Positions 23,114 through 30,550 of a DNA stretch of 64,000 bases are shown here, piece after piece. The notes below the pieces were generated by a model, which worked only from the letters and a program-made list of their open reading frames with translations, was not told the origin of the DNA and did no database searches. The stretch is from Herbaspirillum sp. LeCh32-8. Its GTDB lineage: Bacteria > Pseudomonadota > Gammaproteobacteria > Burkholderiales > Burkholderiaceae_D. Positions within the stretch are counted from its first letter, which is position 1. Every line of letters begins with the position of its first letter. A program made the position numbers and the translations under genes. The stretch is taken from positions 62,001 through 126,000 of the forward strand of contig NZ_JAGIPZ010000010.1 of NCBI RefSeq assembly GCF_017814915.1, in the 5' to 3' direction.

Positions 23114-23335
23114 ATGTCCACCGACATTTCATCCGGAAAAGAGGGGCGGAGCTATCTGAAAGCCCTGCTGCTGCTCCCCTTCCTCGCCTTGCTTTGGGTT
23201 CCGTTCTACAACGCCGAAACGCCTGAGCTGTTCGGTTTCCCCTTCTTCTACTGGTACCAGCTGCTGTGGGTGCCGCTGACGTCCCTGATTATCTGGATCG
23301 TCTACCGCGACGGCCTGAAGAAAGGAGTCGAATAA
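23114..23335 (+). CDS. DUF3311 small membrane protein, symporter partner
   Basis: 73 aa from ATG 23114 with AGGAG seven bases upstream. Two hydrophobic helices ('ALLLLPFLALLWVPFYN' and 'YWYQLLWVPLTSLIIWIVY') with the family pattern 'PFYN...PFFYWYQLLWVP'. Its stop codon overlaps the symporter start (TAATG), the standard arrangement for DUF3311 proteins, thought to be small subunits of sodium:solute symporters. Longer upstream readings of the frame lack a ribosome site. Confidence 0.88.
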   Translation: MSTDISSGKEGRSYLKALLLLPFLALLWVPFYNAETPELFGFPFFYWYQLLWVPLTSLIIWIVYRDGLKKGVE

Positions 23336-24831
23336 TGGAAACCAACAACATCCACTGGTCGGCCCTCTGGGTCTTCATCTTCTTCTTCGCGCTGGTCACC
23401 ATCATGGGCTTCTGGGCCTCCAAATGGATGGCCGGCCCCAAGAACAAGGGCGCCCACCTCGATGAATGGGGCCTGGGCGGCCGCAACTTCGGCACCTGGA
23501 TCACCTGGTTCCTGGTCGGCGGCGACTTCTACACCGCCTACACCGTGATCGCGGTGCCGGCGCTGGTGTATGCGGTCGGCGCCTACGGCTTCTTCGCGCT
23601 GCCCTACACCATCCTGGTCTACCCGATCGTGTTCGTGATCATGCCCAAGCTGTGGCACGCCGCCCACAAAGCCGGCCACGTGACTGCGGCCGACGTCGTC
23701 TGGGGCCGCTACAAGTCGCGTCCGCTGGAGTTCGCCATCGCGCTGACCGGCGTGGTGGCGACCATGCCCTACATCGCCCTGCAGCTGATCGGCATGGAAG
23801 TGGTGATCAAGGCGCTGGGACTGACCGGCGAGCTGCCGCTGCTGGCGGCCTTCGTGATCCTGGCCCTGTACACCTACTCGGCCGGCCTGCGCGCTCCGGC
23901 GCTGATCGCCTTCGTCAAGGACATCATGATCTACATCGTGGTGCTGGTGGCGGTGATCGTGGTGCCGGCCAAGCTGGGCGGCTACGGTGCGGTGTTCAGC
24001 TCGGCGCGCGAAGCCTTTGCCCTGAAGGGCGGCGCCACCGGCCTGACCTTGAAGCCGACGCAGTTCCTGCCCTTCGCCACCCTGGCGCTGGGCTCGGCGA
24101 TGGCGGCCTTCATGTATCCGCACACCCTGACCGGCATCTTCGCCGCCAAGGATGCGAACACGATCCGCAAGAACGCCGTGTTCCTGCCGGCCTACACCGT
24201 GCTGCTGGGCCTGATCGCGCTGCTGGGCTACATGGCCTACGCTGCGGGCATCAAGGTGCAGACCAACAACGACGTGGTGCCGGCGCTGTTCAACGGCCTG
24301 TTCCCGGGCTGGTTCGCAGGCTTCGCCTTCGCCGCGATCGCGATTGGCGCGCTGGTGCCGGCGGCGGTGATGTCGATCGGCGCCTCCAACCTGTTCACCC
24401 GCAACTTCTGGAAGCCTTACGTCAACCCCGGCATCAATGCCGAAGGTGAAGCCAAGGTCGCCAAGATCGTGTCGCTGGTGGTCAAGTTCGGCGCGCTGGT
24501 GTTCATCCTGTTCCTGCCGACCAAGTTCGCGCTGGACCTGCAGCTGCTGGGTGGCGTGTGGATCCTGCAGACCTTCCCGGCGCTGGTGTTTGGCCTCTTC
24601 GTCGGCTGGTTCGGCGCACGTGCGCTGCTGTGCGGCTGGGCGGTGGGCATCATCGGCGGCAGCTGGATGGCGTTTGCCGACGGCATCAAGCCGGTGCACA
24701 CCTTCGTGGTGGGCGGCGACTCCTACACCATGTACACCGGCCTGATCGCACTGGCCGCCAACATCGTGGTGGCGGTCATCGCCAACCTGGTGCTGGGCCG
24801 CGGTTCGCAGCCGGCGCTGAAGCAGTCGTAA
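23335..24831 (+). CDS. Sodium:solute symporter (MctP-like monocarboxylate transporter)
   Basis: 498 aa with about thirteen membrane helices. Family features include 'DEWGLGGRNFGTWITWFLVG' with 'GDFYTAYTVIAVPALVYAVG' after the first helix, and 'LGSAMAAFMYPHTLTGIFAA' mid-protein, the usual SSS sodium-site region. Nearest relatives in memory are MctP-type carriers of pyruvate, lactate, propionate or other short monocarboxylates. The gene overlaps DUF3311 by one base and is divergent from a Cache kinase/LuxR regulator, which probably induces it. Two terminators follow. Confidence 0.87.
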   Translation: METNNIHWSALWVFIFFFALVTIMGFWASKWMAGPKNKGAHLDEWGLGGRNFGTWITWFLVGGDFYTAYTVIAVPALVYAVGAYGFFALPYTILVYPIVFVIMPKLWHAAHKAGHVTAADVVWGRYKSRPLEFAIALTGVVATMPYIALQLIGMEVVIKALGLTGELPLLAAFVILALYTYSAGLRAPALIAFVKDIMIYIVVLVAVIVVPAKLGGYGAVFSSAREAFALKGGATGLTLKPTQFLPFATLALGSAMAAFMYPHTLTGIFAAKDANTIRKNAVFLPAYTVLLGLIALLGYMAYAAGIKVQTNNDVVPALFNGLFPGWFAGFAFAAIAIGALVPAAVMSIGASNLFTRNFWKPYVNPGINAEGEAKVAKIVSLVVKFGALVFILFLPTKFALDLQLLGGVWILQTFPALVFGLFVGWFGARALLCGWAVGIIGGSWMAFADGIKPVHTFVVGGDSYTMYTGLIALAANIVVAVIANLVLGRGSQPALKQS

Positions 24832-25030: not shown

Positions 25031-26536
25031 TTATTCTTGCTCGAACCATTCAGGCCAGGAGCTGCGGTGCCGTCGTCCTGCTTCGACATGAGGGATCAAT
25101 CGCTGCGCCAGCACGGGTAAGCGATTCGCTGATTTGGCAATCCGGTATTTGACGATGTGCACGCATTCCCGGTCGCCAAACTCGCAGCGATTGAGCGAGG
25201 TGCCGCCGCAAGGACCGTTCGCCAAGCCTTTGGGACATGTCTCCGGACATATGTAGACGGTGTCCTGCAGGCGGCAGCTGCCGCAGGTATCGCAACCGAC
25301 CAGCGGTCGCTTGACGGCGCGCTCGACGGCGCGCAGTGCGTCCGCCCCCATGCCGGCCTTCCATACCGGCCGCGTTACGCTCCAGCCGAAGGCTCTGCCC
25401 AGCCATCCCCTGCGGTTGAACAGCTTCTCATGCACTGCAGAGAGCAGCGTATATCGGAAGCGCTCCCCACGGGTGGCGGCGACGTCTGACTGCCCTCTTT
25501 TCCAGCCGCCGGGTCCGGGGGAAAAACACACCCGTACCATCCCTGGCATCTGCCAGCTTGCATGCCATTGCTCCCGCCAATCGGCCAGCGAGCTCACGCT
25601 GTCGCGCAGCTCGGCAATCGCTCGCTCCAGCGACAGCAGCTCGTTCAACGTATGCACCCCTGGCATATGTATGCCGGCATAGCCCATCAATTGCAGGCCG
25701 ACGATCTGCAGCGCCAGGCGTTCCAGGCTGCGCGCGTCGGCATGGGCCGGCGATACCAGCTGCTCCCGGGCCAATAGCTCGCGCATGGATGCGGTGATCA
25801 CGATGCCCGGCACATCCCGGAGCATGGCCGCACGCTTGCCGGTCAGCCTCATCACGCAGGCCAGCATGGGTTTCATGCGCGCCTGCGCGCGCATCCAGCT
25901 CAGCGCTTCCATATGCTTGGCGGCATCGAAGCCCAGTTGCAGGGTAAGGAAATCGGCGCCGGCCAGCAGCTTTTTCTGCGCCTTCAGATACTGGGCGCAG
26001 CCTTCTTCCTCGCGGTATTTGAATGGATTCAACGCCGCGCCCAGCAGCCAGTCCGGACCGTGCTCGCGCGCAATTTGCAGCGCGGGCACCGATTCCAGAT
26101 AACGCACCGGCGCCCGGCCGGGATGATGGCCGGGCAAGCGATCGCCGCTGAGCAGCAGCAGTTGCTTCAGGCCTCGGGCCTTCATCGATGCCATCTGCTG
26201 CAACACGTCGGTTCGTTCGCGATCCTTCCCCGAGAAGTGGAGCAAGGAAGAAGCCGGGTCGCCCAACGCCGCTGCGCCTTCCATGGGGCTCATGTCCGAG
26301 TGCAGACCGACGCGATCGGAAAAGGACGGCATCAGCGGCCAGCCCGCCAGATACCCGCGCCGGGTGATTTGCGCAAGCGCGGCGACGCGCGATGGGGAAT
26401 GTTGAGGAATGACTTCCAGCACGCAGACGAACCGACCTTCGTTCAGCGCTTGTTGCAATGGGCTCAAGAACAGCTCGATACCTGACAGATCCGGGGGATG
26501 CGCCAGTGGAGGAGACAAATTATCAAACCGCGCCAT
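25031..26536 (-). CDS. Methylenetetrahydrofolate-reductase-like protein with C-terminal Cys-rich domain
   Basis: 501 aa. The first ~310 residues resemble the MetF/MTHFR TIM barrel ('GRFVCVLEVIPQHSPSRVA', 'ADFLTLQLGFDAAKHMEALS', 'GIHMPGVHTLNELLSLERAI'). The last ~120 form the MTHFR_C-type domain with a cysteine cluster likely to hold zinc or iron-sulphur: 'GCDTCGSCRLQDTVYICPET' then 'CPKGLANGPCGGT'. The start overlaps the end of the flavin reductase gene by 14 bases, so translation is coupled. Placed downstream of mesX-mesD it may supply, or derive, the methyl group used there. MTHFR homology is convincing; the actual reaction and cofactor are uncertain. Confidence 0.75.
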   Translation of the reverse strand: MARFDNLSPPLAHPPDLSGIELFLSPLQQALNEGRFVCVLEVIPQHSPSRVAALAQITRRGYLAGWPLMPSFSDRVGLHSDMSPMEGAAALGDPASSLLHFSGKDRERTDVLQQMASMKARGLKQLLLLSGDRLPGHHPGRAPVRYLESVPALQIAREHGPDWLLGAALNPFKYREEEGCAQYLKAQKKLLAGADFLTLQLGFDAAKHMEALSWMRAQARMKPMLACVMRLTGKRAAMLRDVPGIVITASMRELLAREQLVSPAHADARSLERLALQIVGLQLMGYAGIHMPGVHTLNELLSLERAIAELRDSVSSLADWREQWHASWQMPGMVRVCFSPGPGGWKRGQSDVAATRGERFRYTLLSAVHEKLFNRRGWLGRAFGWSVTRPVWKAGMGADALRAVERAVKRPLVGCDTCGSCRLQDTVYICPETCPKGLANGPCGGTSLNRCEFGDRECVHIVKYRIAKSANRLPVLAQRLIPHVEAGRRHRSSWPEWFEQE

Positions 26537-27029
26537 GCGCGGCGATGTTGCGATACTGCCCTTTGAAGTACAGCAGCGGGCGCAGGTCGACTTCCGGCAG
26601 GTCCAGCGCTTTCACCTCGCCGATGACGATCACGTGATCACCCGCGACGTGTTCGGCGTAGATCTCGCAATCCAGCCAATGCATGCTGCCGGCGATGATT
26701 GGATTGCCCAGCGGGGACTCCCGCCATTCGATCCCATGCCATTTGTCCGCGCCACGCCGGGCGAACTGGTTGGAAATATCGATCTGCTCATCGGACAGGA
26801 TGTTGACCGCGAAGCGGCGCGCCTGACGAATCTTTGGATAGCTGGCCGAACCGGACATGACGCTGAATGACACCAGCGGCGGGCTCATCGACACGCTGTA
26901 AAACGACTGACAAGTGAAGCCGACCGGCTCGCCATCGATCTGTGAGGTAATCACCGTGATGCCGGAGGCGTAGTGTCCGAGCGCTTCGCGAAAGCGCAAC
27001 GGCTCGATGGCGATACTGGAATGTGACAT
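26523..27029 (-). CDS. Flavin reductase (FMN-binding, HpaC/RutF type)
   Basis: 168 aa from ATG 27029; an upstream start at 27053 is possible. Flavin-reductase-like split barrel: 'FREALGHYASGITVITSQID', 'GFTCQSFYSVSMSPPLVSFS', 'FAVNILSDEQIDISNQFA', 'HWLDCEIYAEHVAGDHVIVI'. Such enzymes reduce FMN or FAD with NAD(P)H and hand the reduced flavin to a partner oxygenase. Here the likely partner is MesX, a putative oxygenase in the same cluster. A hairpin with a modest T-tail separates it from mesD, so expression may be lower or independent. Confidence 0.85.
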   Translation of the reverse strand: MSHSSIAIEPLRFREALGHYASGITVITSQIDGEPVGFTCQSFYSVSMSPPLVSFSVMSGSASYPKIRQARRFAVNILSDEQIDISNQFARRGADKWHGIEWRESPLGNPIIAGSMHWLDCEIYAEHVAGDHVIVIGEVKALDLPEVDLRPLLYFKGQYRNIAAHGAV

Positions 27030-27059
27030 GGCAGGTGCCCGGCAGGTGCTCAATAAAAT

Positions 27060-27102: not shown

Positions 27103-28131
27103 TTACTTCGCCAGTTCCTGGCGGATGATCTCCGCGCCTGCGCTCAGGGCGTTGAGCTTGCCGCGCGCAACCTCACGCGCCAGAGGCGCCATGCCGCAGT
27201 TGGTGCACGGATAGAGCTTGTCGGCATCGACAAACTTCAGCGCCTGGCGCAAGGTGTTGGCGACTTCCTCAGGCGTTTCAATGGTATTGCTTGCCACGTC
27301 GATGGCGCCCACCATCACCTTCTTGCCGCGGATCAGTTCGATCAGGTCCATCGGAACGTGCGAGTTGTGGCATTCCAGCGAAACGATGTCGATGCTCGAC
27401 TTTTGCAGCTTGGGGAAGGCCTCTTCATATTGACGCCATTCCGAGCCCAGGGTCTTCTTCCAATCCGTATTGGCCTTGATGCCATAGCCGTAGCAAATGT
27501 GGACGGCGGTCTCGCACTTCAGCCCTTCGATTGCGCGCTCCAGCGTGGCCACTCCCCACTCGTTGACTTCATCGAAGAAAACATTGAACGCGGGTTCGTC
27601 GAACTGGATGATGTCGACGCCGGCCGCTTCCAGCTCGCGCGCTTCCTGGTTCAGGATCTTGGCGAATTCCCAGGCCAGCTTTTCACGACTCTTGTAATGA
27701 TCGTCATACAGGGTGTCGATCATCGTCATGGGGCCCGGTAACGCCCACTTGATCGGCTGATTGGTCTGTTGCCTGAGGAACTTTGCATCCTCGACGAACA
27801 CCGGCTTGCGACGCGCCACGGCGCCGAACACGGTCGGCACGCTGGCGTCGTAGCGGTCGCGAATGCGCACGGTCTTGCGGTTCTCGAAATCGACGCCTTC
27901 CAGGTGCTCGATGAAGGTCGTCACGAAGTGCTGGCGCGTCTGTTCGCCGTCGCTGACGATATCAATGCCGGCGTGCTGCTGCTCTTGCAGCGACAGGCGC
28001 AGGGCGTCACGCTTGCCGTCGATCAGTTCCTGGTCTTGCAGCTTCCAGGGGGACCACAGTTTTTCCGGCTCCGCGAGCCAGGAAGGTTTGGGCAGGCTGC
28101 CGGCGGTCGAGGTGGGTAACAGTTTTTTCAC
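27103..28131 (-). CDS. mesD: Core methionine synthase MesD (MetE C-terminal-domain family)
   Basis: 342 aa, only the catalytic half of MetE, without the N-terminal folate-binding half. N-terminal 'LLPTSTAGSLPKPSWLAEPE' and 'GIDIVSDGEQTRQHFVTTFI' are typical. Zinc ligands match MetE: His and Cys in 'VHICYGYG', Glu in 'SLECHNSH', and Cys in 'PCTNCGMAPL'. It should transfer a methyl group to homocysteine. The adjacent DUF1852 gene (mesX) places it in the MesD family of folate-independent methionine synthases, which as I recall needs MesX and aerobic conditions and has an unknown methyl donor. It starts 35 bases after mesX. Distinction from other short MetE-like proteins rests on that neighbour. 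Confidence 0.88.
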   Translation of the reverse strand: MKKLLPTSTAGSLPKPSWLAEPEKLWSPWKLQDQELIDGKRDALRLSLQEQQHAGIDIVSDGEQTRQHFVTTFIEHLEGVDFENRKTVRIRDRYDASVPTVFGAVARRKPVFVEDAKFLRQQTNQPIKWALPGPMTMIDTLYDDHYKSREKLAWEFAKILNQEARELEAAGVDIIQFDEPAFNVFFDEVNEWGVATLERAIEGLKCETAVHICYGYGIKANTDWKKTLGSEWRQYEEAFPKLQKSSIDIVSLECHNSHVPMDLIELIRGKKVMVGAIDVASNTIETPEEVANTLRQALKFVDADKLYPCTNCGMAPLAREVARGKLNALSAGAEIIRQELAK

Positions 28132-28166: not shown

Positions 28167-29150
28167 TCAGTGCGCGTAATTGGCGGACCATTGCGCCAGA
28201 ACCGTCTGGTAAGGTTTGATGAAGTTCTCCTCCACAAACCTGCCCTGTTCCACCGCGAGACGGCTGCGCTCTTCGCGGTCATAGACGATCCGGGTCAATG
28301 AATAGTCCTGGTGCTTCAGGCTGGGTTGATAGGATTTTCCCGCCGCTGAATTGGCGTTGTAGATCTCGGGGCGATAGATCTTCTGGAAGGTATCCATCGT
28401 GCTGATGGTGCTGATCAGCTCAAGGTTCGTGTAGTCGCCCAGCAAGTCGCCCGAGAAGTAAAAGGCCAGCGGCGCTGCGCTGTTGGGCGGCATGAAATAG
28501 CGCACCTTCATGCCCATCTTCTTGAAGTATTCATCGGTCAGGGAATACGCGTCCTGGAGGTATTCCACGCCCAATACAGGATGCCGATTTTCGGTGCGCT
28601 GATAGGTCTTGCTGCTCGACACGCTCAGGCAGATGACGGGCGGCTTCTTGAAATGCGCCTTGTATGCGTCCGAGTTCACGAAGGACTTGAACAACTTGCC
28701 GTGCAGGTCGCCAAAATCCTCCGGTGCGCTGAAGACCGGCTGGTTCCTGTTGCGTTCCAGCAGGACCACGCTGAAGTCGTAGTCGCGGACGTAGGAGGAG
28801 AAATTATTTCCGACAATCCCGGCGATGCGTTCATTGGTGTGGCGATCGATGACGGTGGTTTTCAGGATCTCGATCAACGGCAGCGCGTTGCCGGCGCTCT
28901 CGCCATCGACACTCATCTCGACCGACACGATCTCCAGCTGCACGCTGTAACGGTCGCCGGTGGGATTGTCCCAATCGGCCAGGGCATTGAAGCGGTTGTC
29001 GATCATCCGGAAGGTGTTGCGCAGGTTTTCCCGGCGGCTCTCTCCTCGCGCCAGATTGGCGAAGTTGGTGGTGATGCGCGTGTTCTCCGAAGGACGATAG
29101 TCTTCATCGAAACAAATGCTCTTGATCGCGAAGGTAAATTCTTTGCTCAT
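28167..29150 (-). CDS. mesX: MesX, DUF1852 partner of MesD (putative oxygenase)
   Basis: 327 aa from ATG 29150 (MSKEFTFAIKSICFDEDYRP); the frame is open to 29348 but that part is leader. Family blocks: 'TRITTNFANLARGESRRENL', 'RNTFRMIDNRFNALADWDNP', 'VLGVEYLQDAYSLTDEYFKK', 'YFMPPNSAAPLAFYFSGDLL'. No signal peptide; cytoplasmic. From published genetics as I remember it, MesX is required for MesD to make methionine and is probably oxygen-dependent, but the chemistry is unknown. First gene of the mesX-mesD unit, downstream of a metR-like gene and a candidate MetR site. Confidence 0.9.
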   Translation of the reverse strand: MSKEFTFAIKSICFDEDYRPSENTRITTNFANLARGESRRENLRNTFRMIDNRFNALADWDNPTGDRYSVQLEIVSVEMSVDGESAGNALPLIEILKTTVIDRHTNERIAGIVGNNFSSYVRDYDFSVVLLERNRNQPVFSAPEDFGDLHGKLFKSFVNSDAYKAHFKKPPVICLSVSSSKTYQRTENRHPVLGVEYLQDAYSLTDEYFKKMGMKVRYFMPPNSAAPLAFYFSGDLLGDYTNLELISTISTMDTFQKIYRPEIYNANSAAGKSYQPSLKHQDYSLTRIVYDREERSRLAVEQGRFVEENFIKPYQTVLAQWSANYAH

Positions 29151-29326: not shown

Positions 29327-29640
29327 TAAAACCATTAGATTTACTCATGACAAAAATAGATGTGCCGATGCTCGCTCAGGATTGCCCCTCATGCGGAGCC
29401 TTGCGCTGCGCGCTGACGACGGCCGTCGGCCTCGACGTTCAGTCGGGCCGGCAGCCAGGTGAGGGAATTATCGCGAGGGGACGAGTTTGCCTGGGCGGCG
29501 GGGATTTGCTCGCGTCGGATCGATGCGAGCGGGGAGCGATGAAATGGAGCGTGGGTGAGCGCAGTCTCACTCACCGCAGCGGCAGGAACTGATGAATGCA
29601 AGGGCGGCGCTTGCCCGATTTCTCCACGATCGCAGACGGC

Positions 29641-29680
29641 AAAAGCCTGCCGCCCGGCATCAAACGGCGGCGGGGCTTTT
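29641..29680. terminator. Intrinsic terminator overlapping the metR 3' end
   Basis: AAAAGCC..GCCGCC pairs with GGCGGC.GGCTTTT around a short loop; A- and T-runs on both sides. It contains the metR stop codon region and probably separates metR from mesX transcription. Confidence 0.65.
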
Positions 29681-30550
29681 CGCCTGCTCGATGAATGCGC
29701 GCAGGTAGTCGGTACCGACGTCCGCTTCTCGCGCGCCCAGGAAGATGTGCTTGGCGATGCCGTTCTTGCCCAGTCGCACCGGCACCACGTCCATCTTGTC
29801 TGCATACTCCAGCACCAGCCAGCGCGGCAGCGCCGCCACACCGCGACCGCTGGCGACCATCTGCAGCATGATGTCGGTGGTCTCGATCGGCTTGTGACGC
29901 TTGGGCGTGATGCCGGCCGGCGTGAGGAACATGCTGTAGATATCGAGGCGGTCCACCGGCACCGGGTAGGTCACCAACACCTCATTGCTCAGCTGCCTGG
30001 GCTTGACGTATTCCTCCTGCGCCAATTTGTGGTTGCCGGCGACGACCAGGACCTGCTCATAATCGAACACCGGCTCGAACACCAGGCCAGGCTTGTCCAG
30101 CGGATCGGGAGTCACCAACAGGTCGATCTCGTACCCGAACAACGCGCCGATGCCGCCGAACTGGAATTTCTGCTTCACGTCCACATCCACGTCCGGCCAC
30201 GCGGCCAGATAAGGCGACACGACCTTCAACAACCATTGGTAACAGGGATGACATTCCATGCCGATGCGCAGCGCGCCGCGCTCGCCCTGGGCGAACTGCT
30301 GCAAACGCTCTTCCGCCAGGTTCAGCTGCGGCAGGACCCGGTTGGCCACTGCCAGCAGGTACTGGCCGGCTTGGGTCAGGCGCAGGCTGCGCCCTTCTCT
30401 CAACCAGATATCGGTGCCCAGCTGCTGCTCCAGCTTCTTCATGCTGTGGCTCAAGGCCGACTGCGTCACATGCAGCACGCCCGCCGCTGCGGTCAGAGAG
30501 CCTTGCTTTTCCACCTCTTGCACGATGGACAGATGAATGCGATCAAGCAT
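29660..30550 (-). CDS. metR: MetR-type LysR-family regulator
   Basis: 296 aa. N-terminal helix-turn-helix ('KQGSLTAAAGVLHVTQSALS', 'HSMKKLEQQLG') and a substrate domain from about 90. Resemblance to E. coli MetR is strong at 'LRIGMECHPCYQWL', 'VFEPVFDYEQVLVVAGNHKL', 'EVLVTYPVPVDRLDIYSMFL' and 'QMVASGRGVAALPRWLV'. MetR activates methionine-synthesis genes with homocysteine as co-effector. A perfect MetR box lies 7 bases upstream of its start, which fits autorepression. It precedes mesX in the same direction, so regulation of the mesXD unit by homocysteine is the natural inference. Confidence 0.85.
   Translation of the reverse strand: MLDRIHLSIVQEVEKQGSLTAAAGVLHVTQSALSHSMKKLEQQLGTDIWLREGRSLRLTQAGQYLLAVANRVLPQLNLAEERLQQFAQGERGALRIGMECHPCYQWLLKVVSPYLAAWPDVDVDVKQKFQFGGIGALFGYEIDLLVTPDPLDKPGLVFEPVFDYEQVLVVAGNHKLAQEEYVKPRQLSNEVLVTYPVPVDRLDIYSMFLTPAGITPKRHKPIETTDIMLQMVASGRGVAALPRWLVLEYADKMDVVPVRLGKNGIAKHIFLGAREADVGTDYLRAFIEQAKSPAAV

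Follow-up and report, generated by a model that had tools for sequence, protein, structure and literature searches.

The gene examined here lies on the minus strand of a 64,000-nucleotide stretch of DNA from Herbaspirillum sp. LeCh32-8 (contig NZ_JAGIPZ010000010.1), which is referred to as the window. The open reading frame at 25031-26536 matches both PF02219 (MTHFR; 34 bits with a cut-off of 24, E 2.2e-8) and PF12225 (MTHFR C-terminal; 69 bits with a cut-off of 23, E 2.4e-19), which bears out the MetF-like barrel followed by a Cys-rich domain that the initial annotation described. The C-x2-C-x2-C and CPETC...NGPCGG cysteine clusters are present as well. For simplicity, the fusion is called MTHFRC and its residues are numbered from the TTG start discussed below, so that the PF12225 match spans residues 380-458. 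The five scanned neighbor proteins are the mes genes, a LysR regulator, and an MctP permease, and the identities given earlier to the flavin reductase, MesD, MesX/DUF1852, and the MetR-like LysR regulator are confirmed (Table 1). The MctP-type monocarboxylate permease gene at 23266-24831 lies on the other strand and converges on the cassette. MesD lies next to MesX and is accompanied by a flavin reductase, as in the MesD/MesX clusters described previously, in which MesD adjoins MesX, often with a flavin reductase (PMC7857596). The start of MesX is probably the ATG at 29150 rather than position 29348. A structural model of MesX had a mean pLDDT of 71 and returned no PDB match at E <= 0.001.

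Table 1. Features of the MTHFRC locus in window coordinates
Feature	Position	Strand	Basis or remark
MTHFRC, fused MTHFR barrel and PF12225 domain, 478 aa from TTG	25031..26467	-	Pfam, start in relatives, alignment A2, structural model
MTHFR (beta/alpha)8 barrel, residues 1-288	25604..26467	-	structure alignment to 1v93, residue mapping
Folate residues E18, D109, Q177 in the barrel			equivalent to E. coli E28, D120, Q183
Eight-Cys segment of the PF12225 (MetV-type) domain	25163..25294	-	8 Cys invariant, 40/40
Block AGGTATCGAGCTGTTC, possible ribosome-binding region	26468..26483	-	immediately precedes the TTG
Flavin reductase (PF01613; HsaB/HpaC-like small component)	26523..27053	-	NCBIfam matches below curated cut-offs
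MesD core methionine synthase (NF006589)	27103..28131	-	713 bits
MesX (PF08908/DUF1852, putative oxygenase)	28167..29150	-	614 bits; ORF residues 67-389 match profile positions 1-323
MetR-like LysR regulator	29660..30550	-	best NCBIfam match MetR, 223 bits, below the 382-bit cut-off

The initial annotation took a 14-base overlap between MTHFRC and the flavin reductase gene as a sign of joint function. The overlap rests on an ATG at 26536, and the relatives of the gene point instead to the TTG at 26467, 55 bp past the flavin-reductase stop, as the likely start. In 21 of 27 relatives whose loci contain mesX (mes-linked, see below), the frame is closed by a stop no more than 23 codons upstream of the common start position, and that position is TTG in 24 of the 27. 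In the 28th mes-linked locus (L058, Herbaspirillum chlorophenolicum), the two candidate starts are separated by a stop in the same frame. In addition, the 25 nt preceding the start contain GGTATCGAG in 12/27 mes-linked relatives as compared to 0/52 others, and GGTATCGAG precedes the start in the window too. The non-linked relatives mostly start with ATG (36/52), and an upstream stop is less common among them (23/52); from these comparisons, support for the TTG-type start is strongest within the mes-linked clade. The overlap very likely results from a misplaced start codon, which is why the argument from it is withdrawn and the overlap is rejected as a sign of joint function.

Barrel, active site, and cysteine module

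The structural model of MTHFRC (mean pLDDT 85, pTM 0.86) aligns over residues 2-286 with the Thermus thermophilus MTHFR 1v93 (VIA-align Z 24.6, rmsd 3.1, 279 residues) and, together with the PF02219 match above cut-off, assigns this part of the protein to the MTHFR barrel fold. Conservation was read from alignment A2, which contains the window sequence, 37 of 43 non-redundant loci (hand-picked), and two distant relatives. The equivalents of E. coli E28 and D120 are kept in 40/40 sequences and that of Q183 in 39/40; in MTHFR, these three serve as catalytic acid and in pterin binding (PMC11094777). The positions matching H88 and K172 are likewise unchanged in 40/40, and the A177 equivalent is kept. 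Other positions have changed. In 12 family rows compared with E. coli MetF, R118 is replaced by S/T, Y152 by N/S, H156 by Y, and D165 by Q, and the stacking residue Phe223 aligns with Leu or Ile in 12/12, a position that is less sure at 19% identity. The FAD-binding residues considered are H88, D120, K172, and A177, which are kept, and R118, Y152, H156, and D165, which are replaced. For R118, we use the equivalence to Thermus Arg107, which is drawn at the active center (PMC3156243). Leu or Ile in place of Phe223 is not disqualifying, since the active flavin-independent Mfr also has Leu there (PMC11094777). Because the Phe223, R118, Y152, H156, and D165 positions differ, the flavin of MTHFRC may be bound differently, possibly as FMN, which some acetogen MetF proteins bind (PMC8515935).

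In the pocket comparison with MetF that the initial annotation called for, the folate triad is intact, and the FAD-binding positions are partly kept and partly altered. Its suggestion of a different methyl carrier is not upheld, given that the E28, D120, and Q183 equivalents are conserved and nothing points to a new carrier. A related alternative is that the barrel left folate chemistry altogether and persists as a scaffold, sensor, or redox protein that keeps the fold. The low PF02219 score and the substitutions listed above would suit such a protein, but the near-invariance of the E28, D120, H88, K172, and Q183 equivalents makes it improbable. We consider it likely that MTHFRC performs folate MTHFR chemistry.

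The C-terminal segment follows the pattern C-x2-C-x2-C-x8-C-x3-C-x8-C-x7-C-x6-C, and its eight cysteines (C392, 395, 398, 407, 411, 420, 428, and 435) are invariant across the 40 aligned sequences. Near-identical spacing was observed in 4/4 other PF12225 proteins examined (L003, L043, L044, and L054). Model confidence is lower here, with pLDDT blocks of 61-77 over residues 391-440; the structure matches hardly cover the Cys-rich part, and a profile search for a PF12225 structure returned none at E <= 1. The module probably transfers electrons.

Relative to E. coli-type MetF, MTHFRC has the same fold and keeps the Glu, Asp, and Gln catalytic and folate residues, but it is only 19% identical (family rows, 16-21%), differs at Phe223 and the other positions, and has an extra C-terminal domain. 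A closer parallel in domain content is the type II MetFV of acetogens, as in Clostridium ljungdahlii, which likewise combines an MTHFR barrel with a PF12225 domain bearing NGPCGG and many cysteines; the likeness is one of PF12225 and the published signature. The C. ljungdahlii MetV has the NGPCGG signature and two [4Fe4S] sites, and MetFV takes ferredoxin or flavodoxin, not NAD(P)H (PMC8515935). Unlike that system, MTHFRC is a single polypeptide with the Cys domain at its C terminus, rather than a protein with a separate upstream metV, and its neighbors are not Wood-Ljungdahl genes. It is also found in Proteobacteria that have the oxygen-requiring MesD/MesX and an ordinary MetF. The same two modules occur in short loci of Pseudomonas and others (among L042-L055), in which mes genes were not detected. 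There, the Cys spacing of L043 and L044 is near-identical to that of MTHFRC, but PF12225 and barrel are separate neighboring ORFs; in L003 and L054, PF12225 precedes the barrel in one open frame. Finally, PP_4638 of Pseudomonas putida and ACIAD1783 of a MesD organism are distant PF02219 proteins (PMC7857596) and perhaps belong to the same or a sister family. PP_4638 is reported to have no significant phenotype in 101 P. putida experiments (PMC7857596).

Genomic association with mesX/mesD, metE, and queH

A scan of genome contigs returned 212 relatives of MTHFRC, and the best 80 were kept. Within 10 kb on each side, mesX is present in 28 of these 80 loci (best 80 of 212). The mes-linked loci show four arrangements: MesX-MesD-FlvR-MTHFRC on a single strand (14 loci), MTHFRC convergent after FlvR (9), MTHFRC leading a four-gene run (2), and MTHFRC divergent from MesX in a locus without FlvR (3). 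The flavin reductase is thus present in 25/28 and absent from the locus in 3/28, which weakens its candidacy as a redox partner of MTHFRC. The genera represented include Burkholderia, Paraburkholderia, Herbaspirillum, Collimonas, Achromobacter, Pandoraea, Nitrosomonas, Alcanivorax, Pseudomonas, and Kushneria. One copy, L028 (G464), is identical to L075 from Herbaspirillum sp. BIN44. On a quick tree of 82 rows, from which L057, L058, L061, L125, and L129 were excluded for stops in the extraction or a contig edge, the mes label changes three times, and at least two of these changes are forced by well-supported branches. Based on linkage across many genera and in four arrangements, the joint function with the MesD/MesX cluster that the initial annotation had claimed is likely. 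In the Halomonadaceae mes clusters L112, L116, and L127, MTHFRC is divergent from mesX and no flavin-reductase homologue was found in the locus; perhaps MTHFRC replaces the flavin reductase there.

Within the family, an MTHFRC orthologue (>800 bits) was detected in 6/195 genomes, all six of them MesX-positive, as compared to MesX in 24/189 genomes without the orthologue (Fisher 8e-6, uncorrected for kinship). Ten further family genomes with weaker matches, mostly barrel-only or partial but including two relatives at 37-44% in G378, were counted as orthologue-negative. Since all six orthologue genomes have MesX and 24 of the 30 MesX genomes in the family sample are without the orthologue, MTHFRC is an optional member of the cassette. 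A sample of 146 Pseudomonas genomes yielded no match to the fused gene at E <= 1e-40, so no association was computed. The mes-linked genes are under purifying selection, with a median pN/pS of 0.26 over 26 of the 28; L058 and L061 were omitted, the former because its extraction began upstream of an in-frame stop, although the gene itself is intact. Broken copies were observed in L041 (about 1500-2934, minus), with two in-frame stops, and in L061 (10001-11434), with one, and hence MTHFRC can be lost. That loss, and the many MesX genomes of the family sample without MTHFRC, is what would be expected if the gene were a chance or hitchhiking neighbor of the mes cluster with no common role. We regard this as very improbable in light of the four gene arrangements, the label changes forced on the quick tree, and the purifying selection.

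A second association, in the 52 loci without mesX, is with metE. Full metE lies opposite MTHFRC in 18/52 of these loci (best 80 of 212), 17 within 0.41 kb and one at 1.6 kb, and an open gene encoding only the folate-binding MetE N-domain takes this place in 13/52 (best 80 of 212). These 31 loci are nearly all from Pseudomonas, and 30/31 have the metE or MetE-N gene within 0.41 kb of the MTHFRC start, L111 being the one at 1.6 kb. The N-domain genes are 266-381 codons long and open in 13/13 (Pfam check on two). They lie on the minus strand, divergent from MTHFRC, at about 8600-9900 in L081, L082, L091, L092, L094, L099, L101, L114, L118, L122, and L131, at 1072-1995 in L095, and at 3793-4704 in L097; the MetE catalytic half is gone and some are shortened in frame. 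Their label changes seven times on the quick tree, six of these forced (gains and losses pooled), and this scatter suggests that stand-alone MetE-N genes arose more than once. Their median pN/pS of 0.36 over 78 pairs partly reflects their past as part of MetE. MesX is encoded elsewhere in the genome for 12/13 MetE-N loci as compared to 7/18 full-metE loci (Fisher 0.003), and one idea is that the stand-alone domain acts as a folate-binding partner of MesD.

The wider methionine synthase context was then tabulated. MesX was found in 33 of the 50 non-linked genomes that were searched and is missing from 17; 14 of the latter have MetE, 11 beside MTHFRC by tblastn and three elsewhere, and L115, L128, and L131 have broken or partial MetE only. 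Among the MetE genes scored as full, a frame break was seen in L085 and one internal stop was reported in G836/L108. Canonical MetF and MetH were found in 46/46 genome entries, which correspond to 43 distinct genomes after duplicates with identical coordinates are merged (G464=G873, G454=G863, and G476=G878). As every sampled genome keeps this pair, MTHFRC is an extra enzyme. MetE scores above its family cut-off in 27/46 entries, and 14/46 (13 distinct genomes) have no MetE match; all 14 carry MesX. The genome of the window has MetF and MetH, and no MetE match was found in it at E <= 1e-50.

Two readings in which MTHFRC works in the reductive direction bear on these counts. The first is that MTHFRC is an auxiliary MTHFR producing extra 5-methyl-THF for MetE, and that, where it occurs in a mes cluster, it is either a passenger or serves a MetE encoded elsewhere. 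The intact folate residues, the 18 of 80 loci with full metE opposite (best 80 of 212), and the MetE matches in more than half of the genome entries speak for it. It is nonetheless unlikely overall, because the 14 entries without a MetE match include the genome of the window, every sampled genome has an ordinary MetF, and MesD does not need methyl-THF (PMC7857596). The second, raised by the initial annotation, is that MesD receives its methyl group from MTHFRC by way of methyl-THF or a different carrier, with MetE-N presenting methyl-THF in some Pseudomonas. It would explain the tight linkage to mesX and mesD in four arrangements and the open MetE-N genes, 12 of 13 with MesX elsewhere in the genome. 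However, Price et al. (2021) report that MesD needs MesX and oxygen, not MetF, and that mesD and mesX together rescue an E. coli delta-metF strain (PMC7857596), so MTHFRC is not needed to feed MesD. Moreover, 24 of the 30 MesX genomes of the family sample are without the orthologue, and the 28 mes-linked loci yielded no MetE N-domain match. That MTHFRC supplies MesD is thus a doubtful reading, and one with little probability left.

The third association is with queH, which lies within the locus in 11/28 mes-linked loci (L059-L063, L065, L071-L073, L083, and L089) versus 1/52 others (L130; best 80 of 212; Fisher 2e-5). The L071 copy was family-checked, and a twelfth mes-linked match, in L074, is a 26-residue fragment and was not counted. 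QueH is a B12-independent epoxyqueuosine reductase (PMC10378866). These occurrences suggest a recurring low-B12 gene set of mesX, mesD, flavin reductase, and MTHFRC, often with queH. In Acinetobacter baumannii, DUF1852 transcripts drop about 300-fold when B12 is added (log2 -8.3 and -8.1 in two strains), and those of a flavin reductase whose locus number is close by drop by log2 -2.5 (PMC12892962). The cassette here may respond to B12 as well, and these observations bear on control of MTHFRC itself indirectly. A cobalamin-type riboswitch was found in 2/12 loci scanned (of 80), where it lies with the cobalt-transport genes cbtAB beside the cassette (L071:7540-8720 and L083:14614-15717), adjoining cbtAB and not directly preceding MTHFRC. 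An RNA scan of the window region did not find a riboswitch, either before MTHFRC or elsewhere in that region. Shared MetR control of MTHFRC was also considered and rejected, as MetR boxes, scanned with a consensus, are not enriched in the 80 upstream regions (one exact box versus 0.2 expected; with up to one mismatch, 8/80 regions versus 5.6 expected).

A proposed role in methyl-folate management at low B12

Our current hypothesis, to which we assign a probability of roughly 0.42, is that MTHFRC is a single-chain MetFV-type methylene-/methyl-THF oxidoreductase, presumably NADH-independent, that serves the low-B12 state. The gene is extra to MetF, adjoins MesD or MetE, and often occurs with QueH, and it therefore fits a role in managing methylene-/methyl-THF; that it belongs to a low-B12 module is highly probable. 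The gene set would replace B12-dependent functions, with MesD/MesX or MetE standing in for MetH and often QueH for QueG. The barrel would use a bound flavin to catalyze the usual MTHFR reaction on folate, and the eight-Cys module, probably containing Fe-S clusters and possibly zinc in addition, would link this flavin to a redox partner that is not NADH. The potential of NADH is about -320 mV. Since the methylene/methyl-THF couple, at -200 mV (PMC8515935), lies above NADH and the partner would be a different one, the reaction could be reversible.

Where a genome has MesD but no MetE, as is the case for that of the window, an idle MetH would leave 5-methyl-THF without a consumer, a methylfolate trap of the kind that does occur in bacteria (PMC5070874). 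Here MTHFRC would most likely re-oxidize the trapped 5-methyl-THF to methylene-THF, although the oxidative direction is put forward tentatively. Next to MetE, it could run forward, in the reductive direction. Trap relief is not the sole role, because 14 MesX-negative genomes have MetE, itself a consumer of methyl-THF. The initial annotation found it paradoxical that a folate enzyme should sit beside a folate-independent synthase. The juxtaposition stands, and the paradox dissolves if MTHFRC manages the methyl-folate pool at low B12 instead of feeding MesD.

A more far-reaching version is that MTHFRC oxidizes 5-methyl-THF and passes the electrons via the Fe-S module to free flavin and on to MesX with O2. 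Free flavin has a potential near-equal to that of the folate couple, and this, together with the flavin reductase in 25/28 mes-linked loci, allows the route. If true, a single reaction would relieve the methylfolate trap and at the same time drive the folate-independent synthase; we hold it to be improbable.

Whether acting in the oxidative or the reductive direction, a MetFV-type oxidoreductase in the mes cassette would extend enzymes that are said to occur "mainly in anaerobic bacteria" (PMC8515935) to aerobes. MesD/MesX makes methionine without folate or B12, and a folate enzyme in the same cassette allows the draining or filling of methyl-THF to be tested. The literature examined, in the parts that concern MesD/MesX cells, does not address the fate of methyl-folate; the relevant passages of PMC7857596 make no mention of MTHFR genes within mes clusters, and no description of the fused gene in such clusters was found in the open-licence papers searched, as far as their text was covered.

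A further neighbor was observed in the loci without mesX. In 21/52 of these, e.g., L086 and L103 (11451-14927), a gene for a COG0523 (CobW-type) GTPase is convergent to MTHFRC, and cstA lies beyond it in 20 of the 21, a synteny shared within Pseudomonas. The COG0523 neighbor is a possible link to metals.
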